A DNA stretch of 33,712 nucleotides from Deltaproteobacteria bacterium HGW-Deltaproteobacteria-19 (lineage in GTDB: Bacteria > Desulfobacterota > Syntrophia > Syntrophales > PHBD01): positions 1-33,712 of the forward strand of contig PHBD01000031.1 of assembly GCA_002841865.1 (NCBI GenBank), read 5' to 3'. The translations under genes were made by a program, and so were the position numbers. Below the pieces are notes generated by a model. It was given only the letters and a program-made list of their open reading frames with translations, was not told the DNA's origin and ran no database searches. Below are positions 1 to 33,712 of this stretch, piece after piece (positions within the stretch are counted from its first letter, which is position 1; each line of letters starts with the position of its first letter).

Positions 1-1
1 C

Positions 2-142
2 CCGGGATCGCTGCCGGCGATGACGACGGGATGGGTGACCCGGGCATGGCTCAAGAAGCAGCACCCGAAGTGGCTCAAGGAGATGGAGCACGAGGGCAAG
101 CTGGTGGTCTCCGGCGAGGAGAAATCCGGCGGCGGCCACTGA
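2..142 (+). CDS. C-terminal fragment of an unrecognised protein (5' end outside window)
   Basis: A frame open from the window edge ends at TGA 140-142 and gives about 46 residues. The tail is hydrophilic and charged, with a WLKKQHPKWLKEM stretch and a Gly/His end. I do not recognise the family. The frame is favoured because the charged tail looks like a natural C-terminus and a stable hairpin follows 28 bases later. A longer frame from position 31 in another phase looks like a shadow, being rich in Gly, Arg and Pro and running into the modA leader. It could be a neighbour of the molybdate genes or unrelated to them. Confidence 0.5.
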   Translation, partial: PGSLPAMTTGWVTRAWLKKQHPKWLKEMEHEGKLVVSGEEKSGGGH

Positions 143-249: not shown

Positions 250-302
250 CCTATGCTATATCTGCCATATGTCATTGTCTGCATATCGATTTACCTGATA
301 TT
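250..302 (+). promoter_or_regulatory. Candidate modA promoter with ModE-like operator half-sites
   Basis: A possible promoter is TTGTCT (275-280), 16 bases, GATATT (297-302), each box matching consensus at 4 of 6. Overlapping it is CATATGT-N8-GCATATC (266-287), which has the same 7-8-7 geometry as the two inverted repeats before the hydrogenase genes. Its right half matches GCATAAC at 6 of 7. A weaker CCTATGC-N8-CCATATG lies at 250-271. The shared spacing suggests one regulator, but the matches are imperfect. Confidence 0.4.
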
Positions 303-334
303 CCGGTTCTCGTGAAAGAAGGAGGTTCCCGCTG

Positions 335-1105
335 ATGAGACGTCGCGTTCTGAAATCCCGCCTTTTGTTAACCCTGTTCACCCTCTTCACCCTGCTGGTC
401 ACGGTTTCGATGCCATCGCCGGTTTGCTCCGCGGAGCCCCTCCGCGTGGCCGTGGCGGCGAATTTCCAACAGCCCTTCAAGGATATTGCCGCGGCGTTCA
501 CCCGCGAGACGGGCATCCCCGTGGAAGGTGTCTTTTCCTCTTCGGGAAGCCTCTATCACCAGATCACGAACGGTGCCCCCTACGACGCCTTTCTCTCCGC
601 CGACGAAACGCGGCCTGCGGACCTTTTCAAAAAGAGTTTCAGTGGAAAGCCCTTTGTATATGCAACGGGCAGTGTCGTCCTGTGGGCCGAGGGAAAGAAA
701 TTCTGCGGCGCCGCGAACTGGCGCGAGGTTATGAAGAGAAAGGATGTCCAGAAGGTCGCCATCGCGAACCCGGTGGTGGCGCCCTACGGAGCCGCCGCAG
801 AGGCGGCCCTGCGCAGCGCGGGCCTCTGGAACAACCCGGACAAGAAATGGATCACGGGCCAGACGATTGCCCAGGCATTTCAATACACCGCCACGGGCGG
901 AGCGGACGTCGGCTTTTGCGCCCTTTCCTCCGTGCGGGCCGCCAAGACGGACGGCTGTCACTATGACATCGCCGAGGCGCCGCCCATCCGGCAGGGGGCC
1001 TGTCTCCTGAACCGCACGAAAAACCGCACCGGAGCCGAGCGGTTTCTCCAATACCTCCAGTCACCGGCGGCCGAAGCCGTCAAGAAAAAGTACGGCTATC
1101 GATAA
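335..1105 (+). CDS. modA: Molybdate ABC transporter, periplasmic substrate-binding protein
   Basis: This 256-residue exported protein captures molybdate (possibly tungstate) in the periplasm and delivers it to ModB. An N-terminal signal peptide (basic MRRR, then a Leu/Thr/Phe-rich core, cleavage near the Cys-Ser-Ala-Glu at residues 31-34) precedes the typical ModA opening AVAANFQQPFKDIA. The oxyanion-binding segment SSSGSLYHQITNGAPYD and SADETRP follow. Length is normal for ModA. The ATG at 335 follows an AGGAGG site about 8 bases upstream. It heads modABC and abuts modB with no gap. Sequence alone does not separate molybdate from tungstate preference, but the motifs are ModA-like rather than TupA-like. 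Confidence 0.93.
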   Translation: MRRRVLKSRLLLTLFTLFTLLVTVSMPSPVCSAEPLRVAVAANFQQPFKDIAAAFTRETGIPVEGVFSSSGSLYHQITNGAPYDAFLSADETRPADLFKKSFSGKPFVYATGSVVLWAEGKKFCGAANWREVMKRKDVQKVAIANPVVAPYGAAAEAALRSAGLWNNPDKKWITGQTIAQAFQYTATGGADVGFCALSSVRAAKTDGCHYDIAEAPPIRQGACLLNRTKNRTGAERFLQYLQSPAAEAVKKKYGYR

Positions 1106-1765
1106 ATGGAGTTTTTCCCCCTTTATCTCTCGGCGAAGCTGGCCCTGATCACGACACTGGTCCTGATCGTGATCGCCTCTCCGCTGGCCTATGTCCTCGC
1201 CTGCTTCACCTGGCCGGGCAAGACCTTCGTCGATGCCCTCATCAACCTGCCCATCGCCCTGCCGCCCACGGTCATCGGATTCTACCTGCTCTGCCTGTTG
1301 GGTCCCCGGGGAACGATCGGCTCTTTCTGGGACAACCTCTTCGGCGGGTCCATTCTCTTCACGTTTGCAGGCATTGTCGTGGCCTGTGCCACCTACAGCC
1401 TCCCCTTCGCCATCCAGCCCATCAAAGCCACCTTCGAAAAGCTGGATCCCCGGCTCCGGGAGAGCGCCTTCGTCCTCGGACTCTCACCCCTGGCCACTTT
1501 CTTCCGGGTCGTCCTGCCCAACAGCAAGAACGGCATCGCCGCCGCGGCGATCCTGGTCTTTCTCCACAGCCTCGGGGCCTTCGGGGTGATCCTCATGGTG
1601 GGAGGAAGCATTCCTGGCGAGACAAAGGTTGCCTCCATCGCCATCTACGAGGCCGTCGAGTCGTTCCAGTACGAAAAGGCCTGGCTCCTCTCCCTGGCCT
1701 TCCTGCCCGTCAGCTATTTCTTCCTCCTCCTCGTGAACCGGCTGACCCGGAGGGAGGCTTCATGA
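1106..1765 (+). CDS. modB: Molybdate ABC transporter, permease subunit
   Basis: This inner-membrane channel subunit pairs with ModC to import molybdate. The 219 residues hold about five hydrophobic segments. The cytoplasmic coupling (EAA) loop is visible as LRESAFVLGLSPLATFFRVVLP near residues 115-140, followed by a Gly-rich segment (GAFGVILMVGGSIPGETKVASIAIYEAVE) typical of ModB. Its ATG begins on the base after the modA stop and its end overlaps modC by four bases (ATGA). The three genes are therefore almost certainly one translationally coupled operon. Confidence 0.93.
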   Translation: MEFFPLYLSAKLALITTLVLIVIASPLAYVLACFTWPGKTFVDALINLPIALPPTVIGFYLLCLLGPRGTIGSFWDNLFGGSILFTFAGIVVACATYSLPFAIQPIKATFEKLDPRLRESAFVLGLSPLATFFRVVLPNSKNGIAAAAILVFLHSLGAFGVILMVGGSIPGETKVASIAIYEAVESFQYEKAWLLSLAFLPVSYFFLLLVNRLTRREAS

Positions 1766-2478
1766 AGGGACTGCACGTCCGCCTCTCGAAGCGGCTGGGA
1801 AAACTGGAGATCGACGTCGCCTTCTCCTGCCCCGAAGGATCGACCCTGGCCCTGATCGGCCCCTCGGGAGCGGGCAAGACCACGATCATCCGGATGGTGG
1901 CGGGACTGGAGCGACCCGACGACGGGGCGATTCTCTTCAACGGAGAGACGTTTTTCGATCAGGAGAAAGGCATCCGCCTCTCTCCCCAGAAGCGTGGCCT
2001 GGGATATGTCTTTCAGGACTATACCCTCTTCCCCCATCTGTCGCTGTACGGCAATGCCGCTTTTGCGGCGAAGGACCGGACGGAGGTCGAAGGGCTGTTC
2101 CGCTTCTTCGGCCTGGGTCCGATGAGGGACCGCAAGCCCCACCAGGTCTCCGGGGGCGAGAGGCAGCGGTGCGCCATCTGCCAGGCCATGGCAACCCGCC
2201 CCCGGCTCCTCCTCCTGGATGAGCCCTTCTCCGCCCTCGATGTGGTCACGCGCCGCAAGCTCAGGGACGAGTTGAAAAAAATCAAGGAAGAGCGCAGGCT
2301 CTCCGTCGTGTACGTGACCCATGACGTCACCGAAGCCCTGTACATGGCGGATGTTATCCTCCCGGTCGTAGACGGAAAAATCGACCGGGACTGGCTGGAA
2401 GAGATTACAAGCGCCTCCGGCACCCGGAACCTGCTGGCGAAGGCCGTGAGGGAGCCGAAACTGTCGCTGGCCTTCTAA
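1762..2478 (+). CDS. modC: Molybdate ABC transporter, ATP-binding subunit lacking the Mop/TOBE domain
   Basis: This cytoplasmic ATPase powers ModB. It shows Walker A GPSGAGKT (33-40), Q-loop Gln85, signature VSGGERQR (129-136), Walker B LLLLDEP (149-155) and the switch His187. At 238 residues it is about 110 shorter than the classical ModC (around 350), because the molybdate-binding C-terminal TOBE/Mop domain is absent. The frame simply ends after a short tail, with no sign of a frameshift. It overlaps modB by ATGA. Regulation of transport by Mop-bound molybdate is therefore not expected here. Confidence 0.92.
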   Translation: MKGLHVRLSKRLGKLEIDVAFSCPEGSTLALIGPSGAGKTTIIRMVAGLERPDDGAILFNGETFFDQEKGIRLSPQKRGLGYVFQDYTLFPHLSLYGNAAFAAKDRTEVEGLFRFFGLGPMRDRKPHQVSGGERQRCAICQAMATRPRLLLLDEPFSALDVVTRRKLRDELKKIKEERRLSVVYVTHDVTEALYMADVILPVVDGKIDRDWLEEITSASGTRNLLAKAVREPKLSLAF

Positions 2479-2535
2479 AGGACAAGGGAAACCCCGCAGA
2501 CGGGTGTTTTGCATCAGCATACAGAAGGAGTTTTC

Positions 2536-3099
2536 ATGAAAATCGGAACCTATTCAATCGAGGAATACCTTCACCTGATCAAGTCCTTTCACGGAAGCAT
2601 GGCACCCGGACTGATCATCGGCGGGTTCATGGTGGACCTGGCGCAGCAGAACCTCCCGAAGGGGGAGTTCTACGACGCCCTCTGCGAGACCCGGGTCTGC
2701 CTTCCCGACGCGGTTCAGATCCTGACGCCCTGCACCATCGGCAACGGCTGGCTGAAGATTTTCGATACCGGCCGCTTCGCCCTGACCATGTACGAGAAGA
2801 GTACCGGGGAAGGTGTCCGGGTGTACATGGACACGGAGAAACTCAAGGCGTGGCCCCAGGTCGATTCCTGGTATTTCAAGCGGGTCCCCAAGAGGGAACA
2901 GGACTTGGAGGCGCTTCTCAACGAGATCCGGGAGGCCGCTACCTCAATCCTGAGCCTGCAACGCGTTTTCGTGAAACCGGAGTTTCTGGAGAAACGTCGC
3001 CTGGGGCCGACGGCCGTCTGCCCGTCCTGCGGGGAGGCATACCCCCTCCGGGACGGGGGATCCTGCCTGGCCTGCCAGGGCCGATCCCCCTATGCATAG
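2536..3099 (+). CDS. FmdE-family protein with C-terminal zinc ribbon
   Basis: The N-terminal domain (about residues 10-150) matches the FmdE family, first seen beside molybdenum formylmethanofuran dehydrogenase genes. It shows FHGSMAPGLIIGG at 18-30, CETRVCLPDAVQ and PCTIGNGWLKI. A C-terminal zinc ribbon has Cys162, Cys165, Cys177 and Cys180. The biochemical role of FmdE outside methanogens is not established. The start at 2536 is preferred over an in-frame ATG at 2509 because AAGGAG sits just upstream and the family begins near here (187 residues). It lies between modC and the ModE-like gene, so a role in molybdenum or tungsten handling or sensing is inferred, not shown. Confidence 0.85.
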   Translation: MKIGTYSIEEYLHLIKSFHGSMAPGLIIGGFMVDLAQQNLPKGEFYDALCETRVCLPDAVQILTPCTIGNGWLKIFDTGRFALTMYEKSTGEGVRVYMDTEKLKAWPQVDSWYFKRVPKREQDLEALLNEIREAATSILSLQRVFVKPEFLEKRRLGPTAVCPSCGEAYPLRDGGSCLACQGRSPYA

Positions 3100-3117
3100 G
3101 AAAGGAGGGCCGACATC

Positions 3118-3456
3118 ATGAAGATCCGTCACAAGGTCTGGCTGGAGAGCGACGGCAAGGTCATTTTCGGGCACGGCCGGCAGGAGCTGTTCCGGGCTGT
3201 GGAGGCCTGCGGCAGCCTGAACGCGGCGGCAAAAAAGCTCGGGATGTCCTACCGCGCCGCCTGGGGCCGTGTGCGGGCGTCGGAGCAGCGGCTCGGAATC
3301 TCCCTGATCGAGAAGGGATCCCATGAAAAAGGCGGCCACCTGACGGAGGAGGCAAAACGTCTTCTGCAGCAGTTCGAGGAGCTGGAAGAACGCCTCAATG
3401 CCTGCATCCGCGCAACGGAAGAGTGGTTCGACAAGCAGCGCTATGTAAAGAAATAG
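3118..3456 (+). CDS. ModE-like winged-helix DNA-binding protein (N-terminal domain only)
   Basis: This 112-residue protein matches the DNA-binding half of ModE. The helix-turn-helix is SLNAAAKKLGMSYRAAWGRV (about 35-54), followed by the wing and a C-terminal dimerisation-type helix (EEAKRLLQQFEELEERLNA). Full-length ModE is about 260 residues and ends in a molybdate-binding Mop/TOBE domain, which is missing. AGGAGG lies about 10 bases before the ATG. It closes the mod operon and is followed by the hydrogenase promoter, which carries two inverted repeats. It probably represses or activates mod and perhaps the hydrogenase; how it would sense metal is unclear. Confidence 0.85.
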   Translation: MKIRHKVWLESDGKVIFGHGRQELFRAVEACGSLNAAAKKLGMSYRAAWGRVRASEQRLGISLIEKGSHEKGGHLTEEAKRLLQQFEELEERLNACIRATEEWFDKQRYVKK

Positions 3457-3497
3457 GAATCACGTCCGGCCCCGTCCTCGTAGCACGAATTCCACAT

Positions 3498-3511
3498 ATG
3501 TAATATTACAT
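3498..3511. promoter_or_regulatory. Perfect 14-bp palindrome upstream of the hydrogenase promoter
   Basis: ATGTAATATTACAT is exactly self-complementary and sits 19 bases upstream of the candidate -35 box at 3531. Its AT-rich sequence differs from the RTTATGC repeats further downstream. A second dimeric regulator, placed as an activator, is possible. The cognate protein cannot be told from sequence. Confidence 0.45.
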
Positions 3512-3530
3512 CCTTTCTGGCAACTTCCCC

Positions 3531-3592
3531 TTGACATTATGCCTATCCTGACATAATGCATCGGCGTCTCGTTATGCTTCCTTTGGCATAAC
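3531..3592 (+). promoter_or_regulatory. Hydrogenase operon promoter overlapped by two ModE-like inverted repeats
   Basis: A perfect TTGACA (3531-3536) is followed after 15 bases by CATAAT (3552-3557), a plausible but tight sigma70-type pair. Inverted repeat 1 is ATTATGC-N8-ACATAAT (3536-3557) and covers the promoter. Repeat 2 is GTTATGC-N8-GCATAAC (3571-3592), a perfect 7-bp dyad just past the expected start. Centres are 35 bases apart. The layout suits repression. The adjacent ModE-like protein is the natural candidate, since similar spacing recurs before modA. Confidence 0.6.
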
Positions 3593-3662: not shown

Positions 3663-4856
3663 ATGGCACACCAGAAAAGCGCGCAATACGATCGTGTGGT
3701 GCGGAAGCAGTACCGCGAACTCATGGACCGCTGCAAGGTCAATCTGGACAGGATGGACAGCGAGCTGCCCCCGCCTGTGGAAGACTTTCAGGATGTCCTG
3801 AAAGACCGCGGTGTCAGTCGCCGGTCTTTCATCAAGTGGACATCGATCATGACGGGAGCCCTGATGCTTCCGCCCATGTTCAAGCCCATGGTGGCCCGGG
3901 CGGCGGAGCAGTTCAGCCGGGTCCCGGTTGTCTGGCTTCACATGGCCGAATGCACCGGCTGCAGCGAAGCCCTTCTCCGGACTTCTTATCCCAACATCGA
4001 CGACATTCTCCTCGACACCATTTCCCTGGAATATCATGAGACCCTGATGGCCGCCGCCGGCGATCAGGCCGAGCAGTGCCTCGAGAAGGCCCTCCATGAT
4101 TTTCCCGGAAAGTTCGTCTGCGTCGTGGAAGGCGCCATCCCCCTGGCGATGGGCGGCAAGTACCTGACCCTGGGGCCGAAGGGAAAGACGGGTCTCCAGC
4201 TGGCCAGGGAAGTGACCTCCAAGGCGGCCATGACGATCTGCATCGGCAGCTGCTCCGCTTTCGGAAACGTCCAGGCCGCGAAGCCGAATCCGACCGGCGC
4301 GGTTGGCGTCGGCCAGGCCCTGGGCATCGAGACGGTCAACATCGCCGGCTGCCCCCCCAACCCGAACAACTTCGTCGGCACCATCCTCCACTGCCTGATG
4401 TTTGGCGGCCTGCCGGCCCTGGACGGCCTCGGACGGCCGGTCTGGGCCTATGGCAAGCGCATCCACGACTACTGCGAACGCCGTCCCCACTACGATGCGG
4501 GCGAGTTCGTCGAGGAGTGGGGCGACGACGGTGCAAAGAAAGGCTGGTGCCTCTACAAGGTGGGATGCAAGGGACCCTATACCTTCGCCAACTGCGGCCG
4601 GATCCGGTTCAACGATGCGATCTCCTGGCCCATCATGGCCGGCCACGGCTGCATCGGCTGCACGGAGCCGAATTTCTGGGACACGATGGCGCCGCTGGAA
4701 AAGCCGATCCAGGATGCAACCATCGGCGGCGGCGAAGCGACGGTGGACCACATCGCCATGGGACTGACGGTCGCAACCGTCGCCGGCATCGCGGCCCATG
4801 CCGGGGCAACGGCCTGGGTCCACCGGGACGACAAAGACACCGCAAACAAGGAATAG
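3663..4856 (+). CDS. [NiFe] hydrogenase small subunit, Tat-exported, three Fe-S clusters
   Basis: This is the electron-transfer subunit of a group 1 type periplasmic hydrogenase (397 residues; HynA/HyaA/HupS family). The Tat motif SRRSFIK is at residues 52-58 with a hydrophobic core and cleavage near Ala80. Proximal cluster ligands are Cys97, Cys100, Cys197 and Cys230; distal His268, Cys271, Cys296 and Cys302; medial Cys311, Cys330 and Cys333. A hydrophobic C-terminal helix (about 365-385) should anchor it in the membrane. About 50 residues precede the Tat motif, longer than usual, but AAGGGGGAAG before this ATG supports the start. It is the first gene of the hydrogenase operon. Confidence 0.95.
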   Translation: MAHQKSAQYDRVVRKQYRELMDRCKVNLDRMDSELPPPVEDFQDVLKDRGVSRRSFIKWTSIMTGALMLPPMFKPMVARAAEQFSRVPVVWLHMAECTGCSEALLRTSYPNIDDILLDTISLEYHETLMAAAGDQAEQCLEKALHDFPGKFVCVVEGAIPLAMGGKYLTLGPKGKTGLQLAREVTSKAAMTICIGSCSAFGNVQAAKPNPTGAVGVGQALGIETVNIAGCPPNPNNFVGTILHCLMFGGLPALDGLGRPVWAYGKRIHDYCERRPHYDAGEFVEEWGDDGAKKGWCLYKVGCKGPYTFANCGRIRFNDAISWPIMAGHGCIGCTEPNFWDTMAPLEKPIQDATIGGGEATVDHIAMGLTVATVAGIAAHAGATAWVHRDDKDTANKE

Positions 4857-4874: not shown

Positions 4875-6548
4875 ATGGCCAAGCGAATGATCATCGATCC
4901 CATTACCCGTATCGAGGGGCACCTGAGAATTGAAGTCGAGCTGGACGCCACGAACACCGTCAGGGACGCCTGGAGCAGCATCACCCTGTGGCGGGGCTTT
5001 GAAACGATCCTGAAGGGACGCGATCCCCGGGACGCCGGCCTCATCACCCAGCGCTTCTGCGGCGTCTGCACCTACGTCCACTACGAAGCCAGCATCCTCG
5101 CCTGCGAGGATGCCTTCAAGGTCCGGCCGCCGGCGAACGCCCGGCTCGTCCGGAACCTCATCAGCGGCGCCCAGTATCTCTACGACCACGTCATGCACTT
5201 CTACCACCTCCACGGGCTCGACTGGGTGGACATCACCAGCGCCCTCACAGCGGATCCGAAGAAGGCCGTGGAGATGGCCCGGGCCTACTGCCCCAATCCC
5301 TACAACTGCTCCGAGACCCACTACAAGGCTGTCCAGCAGCGCCTGACGAAGTTCGTCCAGTCGGGACGCCTGGGGCCCTTTGCCAACGCCTACTGGGGAA
5401 ACCCATCCTACAAGCTGCCCCCGGAGGCCAACCTGATCATCACGTCCCACTACCTGGACGCCCTGCAGGTCTCCAAGATCGGCGCCACCATGACGGCCAT
5501 CTTCGGAGGCAAGAACCCCCATCCCCAGAGCCTGGTCGTGGGCGGCATCTCCTCGGTCATGGACGCCCTGGATGCTTCTCGCCTCGGCGAGTACCTGTTC
5601 CGGCTCAAGGAGATGAAAAACTTCATCGAAAACGCCTACATCCCCGACGTCCTCCTGGCGGCGGCCTACTACAAGGAAGAAGGCCTCAAGGGACTCGGCG
5701 GCGGCGTCAAGAACTACCTGGCCTACGGCGGATTCCCCCTGGACGACGGATGGACAAATCTGCTCTTCCCCCGGGGTCTTGTAAGGGCCGCCGACGTGGC
5801 GCATCCGATGACCCTGGACGAGGAAAAGATCACCGAGGAAGTCAGCCACGCCTGGTACCAGGACAAGGGTCCGCTCCATCCTTACAAGGGCTGGACGTAT
5901 CCCGAATACACGGGCTACGACAAGGAAGGGCACCTGAAGGGGAGCGAGAAGTACTCCTGGTGCAAGGCGCCGCGGTACGATGGTCTCCCCTACGAGGTGG
6001 GCCCCCTGGCGCGGCTCGTCGTGGCCTATGCGCAGGGACACAAGGAACTCAAGAATCTCATCGACGGGACCCTGAAGGCGGCGGGTCTTCCGGTGACGGT
6101 TCTCTTCTCGACCCTCGGCCGGACGGCCGCCCGGGCCATCGAGACGAAATACGTCGCCGACCATATCGAAGGGTGGGTGAACGAGCTGATCAAGAACGTC
6201 AAGGCCGGCGATACCCGCACCTGGACCAAGTGCGACGTACCCAAGAAGGGTGAGGGCCGCGGCATGACGGAGCCGCCCCGGGGCGCTCTTGGACACTGGA
6301 TCCGGATCGAGGACAAGGTGATCGCCAACTACCAGGCCATCGTCCCCTCCACCTGGAACTGCTCGCCCCGCGACAAGGGCGGGCGGCGCGGTCCCTACGA
6401 GGAGTCCCTGATCGGGTTGAAGCTGGCCAAGGCCGACGAGCCTCTGGAGATCATCCGGACGATCCACTCCTTCGATCCGTGCATGGCCTGCGCCGTCCAC
6501 ATCATCGACCCGCAGACCAACGAGATCCGCAAGTACCGGGTGGCATAG
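4875..6548 (+). CDS. [NiFe] hydrogenase large (catalytic) subunit
   Basis: It carries the Ni-Fe(CN)2CO site that splits or forms H2. The two metal-binding motifs are intact: RFCGVC with Cys62 and Cys65, and DPCMACAVH with Cys536 and Cys539. The protein has 557 residues. Fifteen residues follow His542 (IIDPQTNEIRKYRVA); in this family the tail is removed by the endopeptidase after nickel insertion, matching the protease gene at 7339. It has no export signal and is expected to travel across the membrane with the small subunit. GGGAGG precedes the ATG, and the gap from the small subunit gene is 18 bases. Confidence 0.96.
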   Translation: MAKRMIIDPITRIEGHLRIEVELDATNTVRDAWSSITLWRGFETILKGRDPRDAGLITQRFCGVCTYVHYEASILACEDAFKVRPPANARLVRNLISGAQYLYDHVMHFYHLHGLDWVDITSALTADPKKAVEMARAYCPNPYNCSETHYKAVQQRLTKFVQSGRLGPFANAYWGNPSYKLPPEANLIITSHYLDALQVSKIGATMTAIFGGKNPHPQSLVVGGISSVMDALDASRLGEYLFRLKEMKNFIENAYIPDVLLAAAYYKEEGLKGLGGGVKNYLAYGGFPLDDGWTNLLFPRGLVRAADVAHPMTLDEEKITEEVSHAWYQDKGPLHPYKGWTYPEYTGYDKEGHLKGSEKYSWCKAPRYDGLPYEVGPLARLVVAYAQGHKELKNLIDGTLKAAGLPVTVLFSTLGRTAARAIETKYVADHIEGWVNELIKNVKAGDTRTWTKCDVPKKGEGRGMTEPPRGALGHWIRIEDKVIANYQAIVPSTWNCSPRDKGGRRGPYEESLIGLKLAKADEPLEIIRTIHSFDPCMACAVHIIDPQTNEIRKYRVA

Positions 6549-6564: not shown

Positions 6565-7233
6565 ATGGAAAACATCGTCCCGAAAAAGGAATGGTCCGTG
6601 GCCATCCGCTACAACCACTGGATCATGGCCTTCTCCATCTTCGCCCTCATCGTGACGGGATTCTACATCGCCTTCCCCTTCACCCTGACCCAGGGCGAAA
6701 CGGTCAACAAATTCTTCATGGGCAACACGCGGGGGGTCCACGTCTTCTTTGGCGTCATCCTCCTGTTCCTGTTTGTCTGGCGCCTCTACCTGGCCGCGTT
6801 CTCGCGTTTCCATGCCGACTGGAAGGACTTCTTCGCCTGGACGGATATCAACAATACGGTCAAGCAGATCAAGTTCTACCTTCTGGTCTCGAAGGAGCCG
6901 CCGGCCCACAAGTACCTCTACGGACCGCTCCAGTCCCTGGCCTACGGGGGACTTTTGTTCCTGGTACTCCTCATCTGCCTGACGGGCCTGATCCTCATGG
7001 GAGCGGGCTATCATGCCGGATGGACGGCCCTGATCTACCCGGTCGTCAAGCCCTTCGAGATCATCCTGGGGGGGCTCGCCAGCGTCCGGTACATCCACCA
7101 CGTCCTGACCTGGGCCTTCGTGCTGTTCATCATCGTTCACGTCTACATGGCCTTCTGGTACGACGTGATCTTCAAGGAGGGCACTGTGTCCTCCATGATC
7201 AGCGGCGTAGTCTTCCGGAAGGGCGACCATTGA
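6565..7233 (+). CDS. Hydrogenase b-type cytochrome subunit (HyaC/HupC family)
   Basis: This integral membrane diheme cytochrome b anchors the hydrogenase and passes its electrons to the quinone pool. In 222 residues four hydrophobic spans are visible, with candidate heme His in IRYNHWIMAFSIF (near 13), TRGVHVFFGVILLF, YIHHVLTWAFV and FIIVHVYMAFW. The family signature RxNHW near the N-terminus is present. AAAGGAG precedes the start, and the gene is 16 bases after the large subunit. A terminator follows. The presence of this subunit argues for a membrane-bound respiratory enzyme rather than a soluble periplasmic one. Confidence 0.92.
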   Translation: MENIVPKKEWSVAIRYNHWIMAFSIFALIVTGFYIAFPFTLTQGETVNKFFMGNTRGVHVFFGVILLFLFVWRLYLAAFSRFHADWKDFFAWTDINNTVKQIKFYLLVSKEPPAHKYLYGPLQSLAYGGLLFLVLLICLTGLILMGAGYHAGWTALIYPVVKPFEIILGGLASVRYIHHVLTWAFVLFIIVHVYMAFWYDVIFKEGTVSSMISGVVFRKGDH

Positions 7234-7338: not shown

Positions 7339-7836
7339 ATGACGGATAAGAAGAAACTCATCATCCTGGGACTGGGCAATATCATCACGAAGGATGAAGG
7401 CTTCGGGGTTCACTTTCTCCGCTGGTTCCTGGAGCGCCACCGTCTGCCCGAAGAAGTGGAGGCCGTGGACGGGGGAACCCTGGGATACGTCCTGCTGGGC
7501 CTTTTTGACCGCTGCGAGCGGATGATCGTCATCGATACGATCAAGCTGCCGGATCCGCCGGGATCGATCTACCGGTTCACCCATGAGGAAATGTCCACAT
7601 ATCTGCCACCTCCCACGACGGCCCATGAAGTCAGCTTCTCCGACGTCCTGTGCAAGGCCGAGATGATAGGCGACCTGCCGGAAATCGTTTTCCTGTGCAT
7701 CGTCCCTCATCAGTGGCGGGACATGGGGCTGGAGATGACGGAGGAGATGACGGGGCGGCTGCCGGTGATGGAACGGCTTCTCCTGGAGGAAATGGACGCC
7801 CTGGGCATCCGGACGGAACCGATGCGCGATGCATGA
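7339..7836 (+). CDS. Hydrogenase maturation endopeptidase (HyaD/HupD family)
   Basis: It removes the C-terminal tail of the large subunit once nickel is inserted. The 165 residues begin with the family signature LGLGNIITKDEGFGVH, whose acidic residue is the first nickel ligand. It continues with VDGGTLGYVLL (Asp ligand) and CIVPHQWRDMGLEMT (His ligand). Length is typical. Its end overlaps hypA by eight bases. It follows a terminator and has only a weak ribosome site, so its level may be kept below that of the structural subunits. Its substrate is almost certainly the protein at 4875-6548. Confidence 0.92.
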   Translation: MTDKKKLIILGLGNIITKDEGFGVHFLRWFLERHRLPEEVEAVDGGTLGYVLLGLFDRCERMIVIDTIKLPDPPGSIYRFTHEEMSTYLPPPTTAHEVSFSDVLCKAEMIGDLPEIVFLCIVPHQWRDMGLEMTEEMTGRLPVMERLLLEEMDALGIRTEPMRDA

Positions 7837-8179
7837 ACTGTCCCTCGTTCTATCGCTTCTGGAGATCGTGGAGGAGCAGGCAAGCAGGGCCCCTTTCGAA
7901 AAGGCGGACAGTCTTCTCCTGTCCTTCGGGCGCCTGTCCTGCATCGATCCCCAGGCGCTTCAGTTCGCCTTCTCCGTCCAGGCAAGGGGAACAAGGGCGG
8001 AGGGTGCCGTTCTCCGGTTCGACATCCGGCCGGTGACCATCTACTGCCTGCACTGTGAAAAGGAGCTGTCGCCGCCTTTCTTCACGGGTGCCTGCCCCGC
8101 CTGCGGCGGCGTCGAGGTGGTGCTGACCGGGGGGACGGAGGAGATGAAACTGATCGAAATGGAAGTGGACGGCTGCTGA
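7829..8179 (+). CDS. hypA: Hydrogenase nickel-insertion protein HypA
   Basis: HypA delivers nickel to the large subunit together with HypB. The invariant MHE start supplies the nickel-binding His2. The zinc site is Cys73, Cys76, Cys89 and Cys92 (CLHC and CPAC). Its 116 residues are standard. It overlaps the endopeptidase gene by eight bases, implying coupled translation. It is followed by a 56-base gap and then hypC. Confidence 0.95.
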   Translation: MHELSLVLSLLEIVEEQASRAPFEKADSLLLSFGRLSCIDPQALQFAFSVQARGTRAEGAVLRFDIRPVTIYCLHCEKELSPPFFTGACPACGGVEVVLTGGTEEMKLIEMEVDGC

Positions 8180-8235
8180 AAAAGGGTTGCTCGCAAGGAA
8201 CTAGCCATTCGGCAGTCTGACAGGAGTAAAAAACC

Positions 8236-8466
8236 ATGTGCATCGGCTTTCCCGGGAAGATTCTTTCCATCGACGAGGACAATTTCGCCGTCATCGAGAT
8301 CGGCGGCACGACGCGGGAGGTCTGCCTCGATATTGTGGACGAGCCGGTCCGGCCCGGGGACTACGTCATCTCCCACGCCGGCTATGCCATTCACCGGATC
8401 GACGAAGCTCTGGCGGTGGAAAAGCTGGCGTTCCTCAAGGAACTGATCGATCATGAGATTTATTGA
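8236..8466 (+). CDS. hypC: Hydrogenase assembly chaperone HypC
   Basis: This small chaperone (76 residues) carries the Fe(CN)2CO unit with HypD and hands it to the large-subunit precursor. The essential N-terminal Met-Cys (MCIGFPGKI) and the conserved GDYVISHAGYAIHRID segment are present. CAGGAG lies upstream of the ATG. Its 3' end overlaps hypD by 14 bases, matching the tight HypC-HypD partnership. Confidence 0.95.
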   Translation: MCIGFPGKILSIDEDNFAVIEIGGTTREVCLDIVDEPVRPGDYVISHAGYAIHRIDEALAVEKLAFLKELIDHEIY

Positions 8467-9544
8467 CGAATACCGGGACCCCTCGCTGATCCGTGGGCTT
8501 CTCGCCCGGATCGGGGAGACGGCCGATTCGCTCGCGGACCGGGTTGTCACCCTGATGGAGGTCTGCGGAACCCACACCCAGGCCATCGCCCGCCACGGCC
8601 TGAAGGCCCTCTTCCCCCGGAACCTCCGCCTGATCTCGGGCCCCGGCTGCCCGGTCTGTGTCACCTCCACCGGTGACGTGGATGCGGCCCTCCACCTTGC
8701 CGGCCTGAAGAACGTGACCTTCGCCACCTTCGGCGACATGCTCCGGGTCCCCGGTTCGGGGGGCCGCAGCCTCCAGACGCTTCGGGCCAGCGGCGCCGAC
8801 GTCCGGGTGGTGTCTTCCGCGGCCGACTGCCTCGCCATGGCGGAAGCCGATCCCGCCAGGAACATCGTCTTCATGGGCATCGGCTTCGAGACGACATCTC
8901 CCACGGTGGCCTCCGCGATCCTGGCGGCCCGGAAACGCGGCCTGTCCAATCTGTCCGCCTTCTCCGTCCACAAGGTCGTTCCCCCCGTCCTTCAGGCCCT
9001 TCTGGACGATCCGGCCCTCCACATCGACGGATTTCTCTGCCCGGGCCACGTGAGCACCATCACGGGAACCGCCGCCTACGAGCGGATCCCCGTGTCGGGC
9101 CGGGCGGCGGTCATTACCGGCTTCGAGCCGGCGGATATCCTGGAGGGCGTCCTGATGCTTCTCCGGCAGATCGCGGAGGGGACATTCAGCGTGGAGATCC
9201 AGTACGCCCGGGGGGTGAAGGAGGAAGGAAACGCCCGGGCCAGGGAGATCCTGGAGCGGGTGTTTTGCCCGTCCGATGCCGAGTGGCGGGGCCTGGGAAC
9301 GATCCCCGGCAGCGGCCTTCAGTTCCGGGAGGAATTCGGAGCCTGGGACGCCCGAACCCGGTATCCCATCCCCGAAATGGCCGTGGAAGAGATCAAGGGC
9401 TGCTCCTGCGGGGAGATTCTCCGGGGCGTCCGCACCCCCGAAGAGTGTCCCCTCTTCCGCCGCACCTGCACGCCATCGAAGCCCGTGGGCCCCTGCATGG
9501 TCTCCTCCGAGGGGACCTGCGCGGCGCATTTCAAATATTCCTGA
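8453..9544 (+). CDS. hypD: Hydrogenase Fe-cofactor assembly protein HypD
   Basis: HypD is an iron-sulfur scaffold on which the CN and CO ligands are attached to iron. Family motifs are seen in order: MEVCGTHTQAIARHG, GPGCPVCVTS, GFETTSPT, FSVHKVVPP and CPGHVSTITG. A Cys-rich C-terminus (GCSCGEILRG, ECPLFRRTC, GPCMVSSEGTC) holds the [4Fe-4S] cluster. The 363 residues are typical. It starts inside hypC and is followed by hypB after 16 bases. Confidence 0.95.
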   Translation: MRFIDEYRDPSLIRGLLARIGETADSLADRVVTLMEVCGTHTQAIARHGLKALFPRNLRLISGPGCPVCVTSTGDVDAALHLAGLKNVTFATFGDMLRVPGSGGRSLQTLRASGADVRVVSSAADCLAMAEADPARNIVFMGIGFETTSPTVASAILAARKRGLSNLSAFSVHKVVPPVLQALLDDPALHIDGFLCPGHVSTITGTAAYERIPVSGRAAVITGFEPADILEGVLMLLRQIAEGTFSVEIQYARGVKEEGNARAREILERVFCPSDAEWRGLGTIPGSGLQFREEFGAWDARTRYPIPEMAVEEIKGCSCGEILRGVRTPEECPLFRRTCTPSKPVGPCMVSSEGTCAAHFKYS

Positions 9545-9560
9545 GCAACGGGAGGATTTT

Positions 9561-10220
9561 ATGAAAGTCAGAGTCGTCCAGAACGTCCTCGACGCCAACG
9601 ACCGGATCGCCAACACCAACCGGGCGCTTTTCGACGAAAAAAACCTTTACGTCATGAACCTGATGAGTTCCCCCGGGGCCGGCAAGACCACCCTGGTGGA
9701 GCGGACCATCCTGGCCCTCCGGGAGCGGTTCCGGATCTCCGTGATCGAGGGAGACATCCAGGACACCTGTGACGCGGACCGCGTGGCCGCCCTGGGGATC
9801 CCTGCGGTACAGATCAACACCGGCGGGGGCTGCCACCTGGACGGCAACATGGTTCGGGAGGCCCTGGCGGACCTGAATCTCGACGAGACGGACCTTCTCA
9901 TCGTGGAAAACGTCGGCAACCTCGTCTGCCCGGCGGAATTCCGGATCGGGGAAAACGACAAGGTCATGATCCTCAGCGTCCCGGAAGGCGCCGACAAGCC
10001 CGCCAAGTACCCCCTGATGTTCCAAGAGGCCTCCGTTCTGCTCATCAACAAGATCGATCTCCTCCCCTACGTCGATTTCGACCTCGCCAAGGCCCGCCGG
10101 GACGCCCAGGCCATCCATCCCGGGATCGAGATCTTCGAGGTCTCCTGCAAAACCGGGCAAGGCCTCGAGGGGTGGATTGCGTGGCTCACCCGAAGAATGG
10201 AGACCCGGCGAACGGGATGA
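9561..10220 (+). CDS. hypB: Hydrogenase nickel-incorporation GTPase HypB
   Basis: This GTPase drives nickel delivery with HypA. The P-loop SSPGAGKTT is at residues 36-44. The metal-site segment GGGCHLDGNM, GTPase elements IVENVGNL and NKIDLL, and SCKTGQGL follow. There is no His-rich N-terminal nickel-storage stretch, so this is the short form (220 residues). The start at 9561 is chosen for GGGAGG six bases upstream; a longer frame from 9276 runs through hypD in another phase and is not real. The last four bases overlap hypF (ATGA). Confidence 0.95.
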   Translation: MKVRVVQNVLDANDRIANTNRALFDEKNLYVMNLMSSPGAGKTTLVERTILALRERFRISVIEGDIQDTCDADRVAALGIPAVQINTGGGCHLDGNMVREALADLNLDETDLLIVENVGNLVCPAEFRIGENDKVMILSVPEGADKPAKYPLMFQEASVLLINKIDLLPYVDFDLAKARRDAQAIHPGIEIFEVSCKTGQGLEGWIAWLTRRMETRRTG

Positions 10221-12547
10221 TAGGTCCGATGCCCGGCAAAAGCGCCGCCCCGGCACCCGCAACCATACGCCTCGCCTACCGTTTCACCGGCATTGTCCAG
10301 GGTGTGGGCTTTCGTCCCTTCCTCTACCGCCTGGCGAGGGAACGGTCCCTGGCGGGATTTGTCCAGAATCGCACCGACGGGGTGATCGCCGAGGTGGAAG
10401 GATCGCCGGAGGCAGTCCGCCGATTCGGCGAGGACGCCCTCGGGACGCTGCCCCCGCTGGCGGACGTTACCTCCGTCACATCCAGGGAAGTTATCCCCCT
10501 GGGAGACCCGGACTTCCGGATCGCTCCCAGTGCGGATGCGGGGCGGGCGGAGGTCCGCCTGTCACCAGACGTGGCCCCCTGCCCAGCCTGCCTGGCGGAG
10601 ATGGACGACCCGGAGGACCGGCGGTACCGCTATCCCTTCATCAACTGCACCGACTGCGGCCCGCGGCTGACCATCATCCGGGACATTCCCTACGACCGGG
10701 AAAACACATCCATGGCCTGTTTTCCCCTCTGCCCCTCCTGCCGCCGGGAATACGAGGATCCCCTGGACCGCCGATTCCACGCAGAGCCCAACGCCTGCAC
10801 CACTTGCGGGCCGACCCTCCGGCTCCTGGACGGCGAGGGAAATCCCGTTGCCTCCGGGAGCGAAATCGAGCGGGCCATCGACCTTCTGAAGGATGGCCGT
10901 ATCCTCGCCGTGAAAGGGCTGGGGGGATTTCATCTGGGTGTCGACGGGAAAAACGAGGAAGCCGTCGCCCGGCTCCGGCTTAGAAAATACCGCGAGGAGA
11001 AGCCTCTGGCGATCCTCGTCCGGGACCTCATGGAGGCCCGCCGGCTGGCGGACCTGAGACCGGAGGAAGAAAGGCTTCTCACCTCCCCCGAACGGCCCAT
11101 CGTCCTGGTCCGGAAGCACCCGGACATCCCCCTGGCGCCGTCGGTGGCGCCGGGCATGGCCACCCTGGGGATCATGCTCCCCTCCACACCCCTGCAGCAC
11201 CTGCTCCTGAAGGGGGATTTTCCGGCCCTGGTCATGACCAGCGGCAACCAGACCGACGAACCCATCTGCATCGGCAACCGGGAGGCCCTGGCGCGACTCC
11301 GGGGAATCGCCGATTTCTTCCTCGTCCACGACCGGGACATCCTGGTCCGGTGCGACGACTCCATCGCGATGGTCGCCGCCGGCGGACCCGCCGTCCAGCG
11401 GCGCGCCCGGGGTTACGCTCCCCGGGCCGTGGCGCTCCGGAGGAGATACCCCTCCGTCCTGGCCCTGGGCCCCCAGGTCAAGGCCACCGTCTGCATCATC
11501 CGTGAAGACGCCGCCTTCCTGAGCCCCCACATCGGCGACCTGGAAACGCCCCAGGCGAGGGATTTTCACGAAGAGAGCGTCGCTCTCGTCCGGCGGATCA
11601 CCGAATCCGATCCGGACCGGATCGCCTGCGACCTCCATCCCGGGTACCACACGTCCCGCATCGCCGCCGGCCTGACGGACCGGCAGGTCTATCGGGTCCA
11701 GCACCATCACGCCCACATCGTGAGCTGCCTGGCGGAAAACCGCGCCGGGGGCCCCGTGATCGGCCTTGCCATGGACGGCACGGGATACGGAGTCGACGGC
11801 CAGGCCTGGGGAGGCGAGTTCCTGGTGGCCACGGAGACGGACTTTACCCGCGCCGGGCACCTGAAGCCCTTCTCCCTGCCCGGGGGCGAAAAGGCGATCC
11901 GGGAGCCCTGGCGCACCGCCGTGAGCCTGCTGAGGGAGGCTTTCGGATCCTCCTGGCCCGAGGCGGCCCGGCGGGCCGGCATCCTGCCGGAAGACACATC
12001 AACGGACCTGCTGGAGCGGATCATGGACAGCGGCCTCGCCGGCCTCAAGACGACCAGTCTCGGCCGGGTCTTCGACGGCGTTTCGGCCCTTCTGGGACCC
12101 CGCTATCGGGTCAGCTTCGAGGGTCAGGCGGCGATGGAACTGGAGGCCCTGGCCGGCTCCGCGGAAGGGCGGCTTCTTCCCTTCACAATCGGGGAAGACA
12201 ACGGCACCTATGTCCTGGATCTCTTCCCGGCGGTCCGGGCGCTGGCGGACCTTCTTCCTTGGGGAGAAAGCCCGACGGCGCTGGCGGCGGCGTTTCACCG
12301 CACCCTGGCCGTGTCCTTTACGGCCCTGGCCGACCGCATCCGTGAAACAACCGGACTGAACACGGCGGCCCTGAGCGGCGGGTGCTTCCAGAACCGCCGG
12401 CTCCTGGAGGAAACGACGGCATCCCTTGAAGGGGCGGGCTTCGAGGTCCTGCGTCACCGCCTGGCACCGGCCAACGACGGCGGCATTGCCCTCGGACAGG
12501 CCGTCATCGCCGCTGCACAAGCCCTGAACGAAGCAGAACAGAAATAA
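10217..12547 (+). CDS. hypF: Carbamoyltransferase HypF
   Basis: HypF turns carbamoyl phosphate into the carbamoyl group that HypE dehydrates to the cyanide ligands. Domains in order are: acylphosphatase (GVGFRPF at 29-35), two zinc-finger pairs (CPAC...CTDC and CPSC...CTTC), a YrdC-like domain (KGLGGFHLGVD, LRKYREEKPLAILV), and a Kae1-like carbamoyltransferase domain with HHHAHI near residue 496 and LSGGCFQN near the end. The ATGA overlap with hypB fixes the start at 10217 (776 residues). An earlier in-frame ATG at 10172 would overlap hypB by 49 bases. Confidence 0.95.
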   Translation: MIGPMPGKSAAPAPATIRLAYRFTGIVQGVGFRPFLYRLARERSLAGFVQNRTDGVIAEVEGSPEAVRRFGEDALGTLPPLADVTSVTSREVIPLGDPDFRIAPSADAGRAEVRLSPDVAPCPACLAEMDDPEDRRYRYPFINCTDCGPRLTIIRDIPYDRENTSMACFPLCPSCRREYEDPLDRRFHAEPNACTTCGPTLRLLDGEGNPVASGSEIERAIDLLKDGRILAVKGLGGFHLGVDGKNEEAVARLRLRKYREEKPLAILVRDLMEARRLADLRPEEERLLTSPERPIVLVRKHPDIPLAPSVAPGMATLGIMLPSTPLQHLLLKGDFPALVMTSGNQTDEPICIGNREALARLRGIADFFLVHDRDILVRCDDSIAMVAAGGPAVQRRARGYAPRAVALRRRYPSVLALGPQVKATVCIIREDAAFLSPHIGDLETPQARDFHEESVALVRRITESDPDRIACDLHPGYHTSRIAAGLTDRQVYRVQHHHAHIVSCLAENRAGGPVIGLAMDGTGYGVDGQAWGGEFLVATETDFTRAGHLKPFSLPGGEKAIREPWRTAVSLLREAFGSSWPEAARRAGILPEDTSTDLLERIMDSGLAGLKTTSLGRVFDGVSALLGPRYRVSFEGQAAMELEALAGSAEGRLLPFTIGEDNGTYVLDLFPAVRALADLLPWGESPTALAAAFHRTLAVSFTALADRIRETTGLNTAALSGGCFQNRRLLEETTASLEGAGFEVLRHRLAPANDGGIALGQAVIAAAQALNEAEQK

Positions 12548-12567
12548 ACATCACGGAGGCACGAAAC

Positions 12568-13578
12568 ATGAGCAACGACCGGATCCTGCTGGAGCACGGC
12601 GGGGGCGGCCTGCTGTCGCACGAACTGATCGCCGAACGGTTCGTTCCCCTCTTCCGGAACCCCTGGCTGGAAAAACTGGAAGACAGCGCCGTCGCCGAGA
12701 TCGATGGATCGAGGATCTGCCTGACGACCGACTCCTACGTGGTCCAGCCGCCCTTCTTTCCCGGCGGCGACATCGGCTCCCTCGCCGTTCACGGCACCGT
12801 GAACGACCTGGCCGTCTGCGGCGCAACGCCCCTGTTCCTGAGCGCCGCCTATATCCTGGAGGAGGGTTTCCCCCTGGCGGACCTGGACCGGATCGTCCGC
12901 TCCATGGCGGAAGCCGCCGAAAAGGCCGGGGTCCGGATCGTCACCGGGGACACCAAGGTCGTTCCCCGGGGCGCTGCCGACGGAATCTTTATCAACACCT
13001 CCGGGATCGGCATCGTCCGTTATCCGGGCCCCCTCTCGGTCCGGAGCATTGCCCCGGGTGACGCCGTAATCCTGAGCGGGTTTCTCGGCGACCACGGAAC
13101 GGCGGTCCTCAGCGCCCGCCAGGACCTGGGGCTCCGCACGGCGATCCTGTCCGACTCGGCGCCCCTGAACGGACTCGTCGCGGCGGCCCTTGACACCAGC
13201 CTGCGGGTCCACTGCATGCGCGACGCCACCCGGGGCGGACTGGGGGCCATCCTGGCGGAGATTGCTACCCAGTCGGAGCTGGAGATCACAATCGACGAGA
13301 AGAGCATCCCCGTCCGTGAGGAGGTCCGCGGCGTTTGCGAAATCCTCGGGCTGGACCCTCTCTTCCTGGCGAATGAAGGGAAAATGGCCCTTTTCTGCCC
13401 TGCGGAAGAGGCGGATATCGTCCTGAAGGCCATGAAGGAACATCCCCTGGGCCGGGACGCTGTGCTCATCGGGGCCGTCGGGAACACACGGAAGGGCCGG
13501 CTGATCCTGCGCACCGCCATTGGCGGCTCCCGGGTCATCGACCTTCCCACGGGTGAGTTGGTCCCCAGAATCTGCTGA
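12568..13578 (+). CDS. hypE: Hydrogenase maturation dehydratase HypE
   Basis: HypE accepts the carbamoyl group from HypF on its C-terminal Cys and dehydrates it with ATP to thiocyanate, the cyanide donor. The conserved C-terminal PRIC ends the protein, leaving the required terminal Cys. PurM/AIR-synthase-like motifs include LEHGGGG, TTDSYVVQPPFFPGGDIG, VHGTVNDLAVCGA, GDTKVVPRG and RDATRGGLG. Its 336 residues are normal. ACGGAGG precedes the ATG, 20 bases after hypF. It is the last gene of the maturation run before nikR. Confidence 0.96.
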   Translation: MSNDRILLEHGGGGLLSHELIAERFVPLFRNPWLEKLEDSAVAEIDGSRICLTTDSYVVQPPFFPGGDIGSLAVHGTVNDLAVCGATPLFLSAAYILEEGFPLADLDRIVRSMAEAAEKAGVRIVTGDTKVVPRGAADGIFINTSGIGIVRYPGPLSVRSIAPGDAVILSGFLGDHGTAVLSARQDLGLRTAILSDSAPLNGLVAAALDTSLRVHCMRDATRGGLGAILAEIATQSELEITIDEKSIPVREEVRGVCEILGLDPLFLANEGKMALFCPAEEADIVLKAMKEHPLGRDAVLIGAVGNTRKGRLILRTAIGGSRVIDLPTGELVPRIC

Positions 13579-13658
13579 AATCCGCTCTCCTGTAAAATCG
13601 GCCCGGCCGGGAAATCGCCGCCGGAGGAACATTGCCACCAGCAGCATCTTGAAGCGAG

Positions 13659-13688
13659 TTGACATGACGGTTGCTCTCCTGCTAAATA
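13659..13688 (+). promoter_or_regulatory. Candidate sigma70-type promoter for nikR
   Basis: TTGACA (13659-13664) is perfect to consensus and is followed after 18 bases by TAAATA (13683-13688), or after 17 by CTAAAT. The nikR ATG is 32 bases further on with AGGAGGG upstream. No GTATGA-type NikR operator was seen in the 141-base gap. Confidence 0.5.
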
Positions 13689-13719
13689 GTTCATGAATCC
13701 CCTACAGGAGGGTAACTGA

Positions 13720-14136
13720 ATGTCTGAACTGGTGCGCTTCGGCGTTTCCCTCGAAAAGAGCCTCCTCGACAAGTTCGACCGCCTGATCCGGGAGCGACGT
13801 TATACCAACCGCTCCGAGGCCCTGCGGGACCTGATCCGCCAGGAACTGGTCAAAAAGACCTGGTCGGAAGACCTTGAGGTGGCCGGTGCCATTACGTTTA
13901 TCTTTGACCACCACCAGCGGGACCTCCTGAACCGCATCACCGATATCCAGCACGATTACCAGAAACTCATCATCTCCACCCAGCACGTCCACCTGGACCA
14001 CGACAACTGCCTGGAGATCGTCGCCGTCCGTGGGAAAGCCGGCAGGATCCAGGACCTGACGGACAGCCTGAAGGCCATCCGGGGGGTGCGCCACTGTTCC
14101 CTCTCCATGTCCAGCGCCGGCAAGGACGTCCGGTAA
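13720..14136 (+). CDS. nikR: Nickel-responsive transcriptional regulator NikR
   Basis: This ribbon-helix-helix repressor binds DNA when loaded with nickel. The N-terminal RHH domain (about 1-45) contains RFGVSLEKSLLDKFD and YTNRSEALRDLIR. The C-terminal ACT-like nickel domain keeps all four high-affinity ligands at His78, His89, His91 and Cys97, each offset by two from the E. coli numbering. The 138 residues are typical. An excellent AGGAGGG precedes the ATG, and a separate promoter is likely. Its place after the hyp genes suggests control of nickel uptake or hydrogenase genes, but no nik transporter is in the window. Confidence 0.95.
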   Translation: MSELVRFGVSLEKSLLDKFDRLIRERRYTNRSEALRDLIRQELVKKTWSEDLEVAGAITFIFDHHQRDLLNRITDIQHDYQKLIISTQHVHLDHDNCLEIVAVRGKAGRIQDLTDSLKAIRGVRHCSLSMSSAGKDVR

Positions 14137-33601: not shown

Positions 33602-33712
33602 GGAGAGGGACTCCCCTCGCGCTCAGAAGCGTTTTTTCGACCCTGCATCGTCTCGCTCCGCTGCAAAGTCATAACTCGCGCCTGGCGGCGCTCAGACAGA
33701 TGACTTTGCGGG
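33602..33712. repeat. Structured repeat-like element at the window edge
   Basis: GCAAAGTCAT (33663-33672) is repeated inverted at 33700-33709, and GGGAG/CTCCC form a hairpin just upstream (near 33600-33615). CGCGCTCAG (near 33629) and GGCGCTCAG (near 33686) are near-identical direct copies. No coding frame fits. It may continue past the window. It looks like part of a dispersed structured element. Confidence 0.4.

Follow-up and report, generated by a model that had tools for sequence, protein, structure and literature searches.

Predicted ModE-family operators at hydrogenase, formate dehydrogenase and molybdate uptake genes in Syntrophales

Palindromes at the mod and hyn operons

Contig PHBD01000031.1 of Deltaproteobacteria bacterium HGW-Deltaproteobacteria-19 (an anaerobe of the order Syntrophales; assembly GCA_002841865.1) was analysed from position 1 to position 33,712, a stretch that we refer to as the window. 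Its relatives in sequence comparison were Syntrophus, Smithella and other deltaproteobacteria, from which membership of the Syntrophales is most likely. Read from left to right on one strand (forward), it carries the end of a formate dehydrogenase (FDH) cytochrome b gene, modABC, an fmdE-like gene, a ModE-type regulatory gene, two palindromes, hynS-hynL with a cytochrome b gene, and maturation genes with nikR as the last. The subject of this work is the two palindromes between modE (3118-3456) and hynS (3663-4856), together with related dyads upstream of modA (335-1105), as candidate operators of the ModE-type protein.

Predicted operator 1, ATTATGCCTATCCTGACATAAT (3536-3557), begins 80 bp beyond the end of modE, and predicted operator 2, GTTATGCTTCCTTTGGCATAAC (3571-3592), lies 35 bp downstream of operator 1. 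Both match RTTATGY-N8-RCATAAY exactly, which bears out the pair of 7-8-7 inverted repeats, preceded by the end of a ModE-type gene, that a sequence-only reading of this DNA had described. In the 3.98-Mb genome the pattern RTTATRY-N8-RYATAAY occurs with zero mismatches at five sites only, including operators 1 and 2; one of the other three is located on the neighbouring contig C49. Operator 1 is conserved in the sister genome G001, where the counterpart of operator 2 is TATATGCTATCCAAGACATAGC, with symmetry retained and bases altered in both arms and in the spacer.

These positions were also recovered by a symmetric matrix trained on the upstream regions of fdh, fdhE, modA and modE from other families, from which the own genus and all hydrogenases had been excluded. 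The full matrix was applied to the window, and genome-wide scans were carried out with patterns. Its four best matches in the entire window start at 250 (18.5), 3571 (18.0), 3536 (17.7) and 266 (12.8), followed by a score of 5.0, and the maxima in ten shuffled windows ranged from 1.5 to 9.4. The shared symmetric operator is TATGYCA-N4-TGRCATA, and both hyn dyads as well as the family matrix show the TAT-N12-ATA frame of the Escherichia coli ModE box.

Two overlapping dyads precede modA. The first, CCTATGCTATATCTGCCATATG (250-271; TATGC-N8-CCATA), is located 64-85 bp before the modA ATG. The second, CATATGTCATTGTCTGCATATC (266-287), is shifted by a 16-bp register, has the CATATG half-site in common with the first and matches the core TATGY-N8-RCATA with no mismatch. 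It deviates from the strict consensus at three positions, a level at which counting consensus matches does not distinguish a modA copy from chance (7 matches in the window against 3.4 expected), and it is not conserved in G001. Because dyad 250-271 is conserved in G001 and has the higher matrix score, it is the most likely modA operator as judged from the sequence. The earlier proposal of a degraded copy at 266-287 was thus right about a copy at modA and wrong about its place. Overlapping dyads in the same 16-bp register that share CATATG recur elsewhere (loci L164, L176, L105 and L112, and the hyn upstream region of G071) besides window 250-287.

A putative hyn promoter on the forward strand (3531-3557) can be read from the sequence as TTGACA (3531-3536) and CATAAT (3552-3557), and the same hexamers are found in G001. 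Operator 1 does not cover TTGACA, as had been claimed, but abuts it, the last A of the hexamer alone being base 1 of the dyad. The right half-site CATAAT would serve as the -10 element at a short spacing of 15 bp; an automatic promoter scan that allowed spacings of 16-18 called no hyn promoter.

The mod operon consists of modA (TIGR01256 above cut-off), the permease gene modB (1106-1765; TIGR02141 above cut-off), the ATPase gene modC (1762-2478; 238 amino acids, Pfam ABC_tran) and, within the same operon, a gene for an FmdE-like protein with a treble-clef zinc finger (2536-3099; PF02663, PF23475). ModC matches TIGR02142 below cut-off and over the ATPase part only, and no TOBE domain was found in it with Pfam. 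Genes hynS (TIGR00391 above cut-off; PF14720, PF01058), hynL (4875-6548; PF00374, E 1e-209) and the cytochrome b gene (6565-7233; TIGR02125 above cut-off) place the small subunit, the large subunit and a b-type cytochrome of a [NiFe] hydrogenase in one cluster. Maturation genes follow at 7339-14136, namely those for a HycI-type protease, hypA, hypD, hypB, hypF, hypE and nikR (13720-14136); the protease, HypA and NikR were identified with Pfam, and hypD, hypB, hypF and hypE were assigned from their translations.

At its left end the window opens with the 3' end of fdhI, the FDH cytochrome b gene (1-142), whose operon lies on C49; the end of that contig is identical to window positions 1-99 (a 99-bp exact overlap). 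Joined in this way, two selenocysteine FDH operons and fdhE lie directly upstream of modABC with three further dyads. The reconstructed order is fdh2 and fdhE in one direction, an intergenic region with two dyads, fdh1GHI, modABC-fmdE-modE, two dyads and hynSL. The catalytic genes of fdh1 and fdh2 each contain an in-frame TGA at the expected selenocysteine position.

Distribution of the operator across the order

Three of the four matches to TATGYCA-N4-TGRCATA in the own genome are at formate dehydrogenase genes, and one dyad lies just before fdh2. A further dyad (L160, C54; 4297-4318) is separated by 47 bp from the downstream gene of a third FDH, of the soluble type, in which an in-frame stop marks the place expected for selenocysteine. 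Two sites, C28:103213 before a putative lipoprotein gene and C32:2260 before a small lipoprotein gene, could not be linked to molybdenum, formate or hydrogen genes. On C28, the dyad ahead of a putative lipoprotein operon (L016 5214-5235) is a strong one (24.3), and no connection of that operon to these functions is evident.

The order-wide analysis covered 149 genomes, including this one (G000) and its sister G001. Perfect cores (TATGY-N8-RCATA) were found upstream of fdh1 in all 7 cases and of fdh2 in all 10, against a shuffle expectation of 0.00 for each, and cores with at most one mismatch upstream of modA in 10 of 11 cases and of modE in 21 of 44. Among genomes with modE, the hynS upstream region holds a perfect core in 20 of 34 (0.06 in shuffled sequence) and a core with at most one mismatch in 30 of 34 (2.2 in shuffled sequence). 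The refuting outcome named in the sequence-only reading, absence of the motif before orthologous hydrogenase or mod genes or random matches across genomes, is therefore not what was observed: an exact pattern search of the 149 genomes returned 141 sites, against 4 for a reversed control pattern. The sites whose contexts were examined mostly precede FDH operons; among the remainder are a site at modA and, in G091 and G113, sites at two operons for [FeFe] hydrogenase.

Some features of site arrangement recur. The sites at fdh1 lie 250-350 bp before the ATG, and those at fdh2 and hyn are proximal. The sequence CCTTGACATTATGCC is common to the sites of some promoters (hyn and fdhE). Paired dyads 46 bp apart are repeatedly seen among the upstream regions, including that of fdh2. 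At the [FeFe]-hydrogenase operons, dyads were located at position 4631 of L164 and at 5283, 5299 and 5315 of L176, the latter three in 16-bp steps.

Could the dyads be functionless, AT-rich promoter DNA that is alike by chance or shared descent? The genomes compared are relatives of common ancestry, and the copy at 266-287 taken alone is at chance level. Yet symmetry is kept between the sister genomes despite the changes in both arms and the spacer, and at the family level this explanation is refuted by the upstream counts, the 149-genome pattern search and the independent matrix; we consider it highly improbable.

Site occurrence follows modE. Of the genomes with modE, 63 of 100 contain sites, compared with 12 of 49 without it. 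At hynS the core is present in none of the 6 genomes that lack modE, as against the 30 of 34 given above (Fisher p 5e-5, a test that, like the genome counts, ignores phylogeny). In six genomes from five families modE lies directly beside hynS (G000, G001, G008, G045 and G096) or is divergent from it (G129). Computationally, then, the central claim of the sequence-only reading, that one ModE-like regulator joins the mod operon and the hydrogenase, has held up: the motif precedes hyn, mod and fdh genes in many families and tracks modE.

A different regulator might account for the same distribution. TaoR, which Rajeev et al. (2019; cited in PMC10102598) reportedly presented as a regulator of tungstate uptake and tungstoenzymes in deltaproteobacteria, differs from ModE in combining an excisionase-type helix-turn-helix (HTH_17) with a PBP-like domain. 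This genome encodes a TaoR-type protein (C35:122400-123308) close to tupABC, and 112 of the 149 genomes have such a gene, among them all 12 that keep sites without modE; among modE-carrying genomes, site presence climbs with TaoR. Sites nevertheless track modE both in the absence of TaoR (11 of 26 genomes with modE, 0 of 11 without) and in its presence (52 of 74 and 12 of 38), and no dyad was found in the tup region examined (L159). The hynS dyads do not follow TaoR at all, being present in 9 of 10 genomes that have modE but not TaoR and in 0 of 4 with the reverse combination, a distribution that does not fit TaoR as their main binder. We regard TaoR as an improbable owner of the dyads as a whole, but take it seriously as an alternative at some of the FDH sites.

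NikR, which would match a nickel enzyme to nickel supply, is suggested by its gene at the end of the hyp cluster and by the predicted NikR control of a hydrogenase in Desulfovibrio, as given in PMC545781. The deltaproteobacterial NikR box published there, GTGTTAC-N13/14-GTAACAC, is of another type than TATGY-N8-RCATA. Moreover, nikR occurs in 39 of 40 genomes with hyn, and the six that lack the dyad are all among these 39. The dyad is also found in front of operons for FDH and mod, neither of which uses nickel. Operator type and distribution exclude NikR as the binder of the hyn dyads, leaving it a minimal probability.

The ModE-like protein and the proposed regulon

The protein encoded at 3118-3456 comprises 112 amino acids and a winged helix only (PF00126). 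It matches the ModE profile TIGR00637 with E 5e-15 and 55 bits, below the cut-off of 98.5. In a comparison of the family profile with the Protein Data Bank (PDB), the best matches were 2ijl (1.6e-9), followed by 1o7l and 1b9m (8e-4), all of ModE type, with LysR proteins ranking behind. The stretch MSYRAAWG is invariant in the family. The protein thus belongs to the ModE family by its N-terminal winged-helix DNA-binding part. A second paralogue consisting of the helix-turn-helix (HTH) part only (L090 7310-7588; C35:162312) has two dyads and adjoins another molybdopterin oxidoreductase gene.

We conclude that the dyads are in all likelihood operators of this HTH-only regulator, as far as sequence comparison can tell, and a predicted ModE-family regulon over FDH, molybdenum uptake and hydrogenase is well supported. 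Its members would be two membrane-type and one soluble selenocysteine FDH, the molybdate uptake genes, in many relatives also modE, and a hydrogenase, which is [NiFe] HynSL-cytochrome b here and [FeFe] in some relatives. One ModE dimer may bind per dyad. Repression, as at mod of E. coli, would be the simplest effect at hyn, an assignment of moderate confidence: operator 1, with TTGACA at one end and CATAAT at the other, would span the -35/-10 interval, and operator 2 would lie just past the presumed start. Occupancy is proposed to follow molybdenum or tungsten (Mo/W) status, so that H2- and formate-handling enzymes would be adjusted along with the metal supply for the FDHs.

Apart from the phylogenetic dependence of the genome counts, several observations weigh against this assignment. 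Four modE-carrying genomes have no hyn site, and 12 genomes without modE retain one or two sites. Two genomes with dyads in which modE was undetected are rated 100% complete, namely G091, whose sites precede an [FeFe] hydrogenase as well as an FDH, and G095, with a site ahead of a soluble FDH. The 15-bp spacer of the putative hyn promoter is sub-optimal. Finally, neither a Mop nor a TOBE molybdate-binding domain was found in the 112-residue protein, which is accordingly not a full-length ModE, and the genome's single TOBE match belongs to a TupC-like ATPase. This raises the question of how a ModE without a ligand domain could sense metal. The fmdE-like zinc-finger gene, which is regularly found in the mod operon (in the window and at L024-L027, L104, L111, L170 and L171), is a candidate for supplying the domain-less ModE with a partner that handles metal.

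Electrons from syntrophic bacteria, which make up most of this order, reach methanogens in the form of H2 or formate. An operator common to hydrogenases, FDHs and molybdate uptake across the families of the order provides a concrete regulator and DNA sites for the question of H2 versus formate. One ModE-type switch probably coordinates both electron carriers. The regulator might instead raise or lower hydrogenase and FDH together, as one electron-carrier regulon bound by ModE with no switch, and we give this an even chance. It is favoured by the same operator at all these promoters, by the CCTTGACATTATGCC shared among some of them and by sites often on the promoter or near the ATG; the distal position at fdh1, as opposed to the proximal sites at fdh2 and hyn, makes opposite signs possible. 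The data fit switching and co-regulation equally well, and the switch is inferred. Regulation at fdh and hyn may differ in sign, since in E. coli ModE acts as a repressor of mod and also supports the expression of hyc and fdhF (PMC3149613). The most specific form of the proposal is put forward tentatively, as possible rather than likely: a stand-alone ModE DNA-binding domain, its metal sensing supplied by a non-Mop partner, would set the H2/formate balance of syntrophic bacteria under Mo/W status through one operator at [NiFe] and [FeFe] hydrogenases, selenocysteine FDHs and molybdenum uptake genes.

Comparison with known ModE systems

In the ModE regulon of E. coli, mod is repressed and hyc, fdhF, nar and others are activated, and expression of fdhF and hyc reaches its maximum only with ModE, FhlA and formate together (PMC3149613). 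As there, a winged-helix protein of the ModE family is predicted here to bring mod, FDH and [NiFe] hydrogenase into one regulon. The 18-bp TAT...ATA frame is identical to that of the E. coli ModE box, for which PMC545781 gives the consensus ATCGNTATATA-N6-TATATANCGAT. Unlike that of E. coli, the regulator here lacks the molybdate-binding domains; the core is TATGYCA/TGRCATA instead of TATATA, and control is predicted for a stand-alone hynSL-cytochrome b hydrogenase, whose dyads overlap or follow the putative core promoter.

Among deltaproteobacteria, Desulfovibrio and Desulfotalea resemble the present case in having a single ModE DNA-binding domain encoded near mod genes, whereas the motif predicted for Desulfovibrio is CGGTCACG-N14-CGTGACCG, at mod genes only (Rodionov 2004, PMC545781). 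A ModE regulon was also predicted in Geobacter sulfurreducens, with a full-length ModE and with no hydrogenase or FDH among the targets named in the text of PMC2700814. So far as these two accounts extend, earlier deltaproteobacterial work on ModE thus describes other motifs and no hydrogenase targets. The closest structural match by sequence, PDB 2ijl, is a DNA-binding domain only, as here, but has 135 residues and was named by its depositors a molybdenum-binding transcriptional repressor.

The remark in the sequence-only reading that a hydrogenase link is not generally described for ModE needs qualifying, since ModE control of hyc, the hydrogenase of formate hydrogenlyase, is known from E. 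coli (PMC3149613). Within the openly accessible literature, the predicted control of stand-alone hydrogenases, the respiratory [NiFe] enzyme as well as [FeFe] enzymes, by an HTH-only ModE is a new form of this link.

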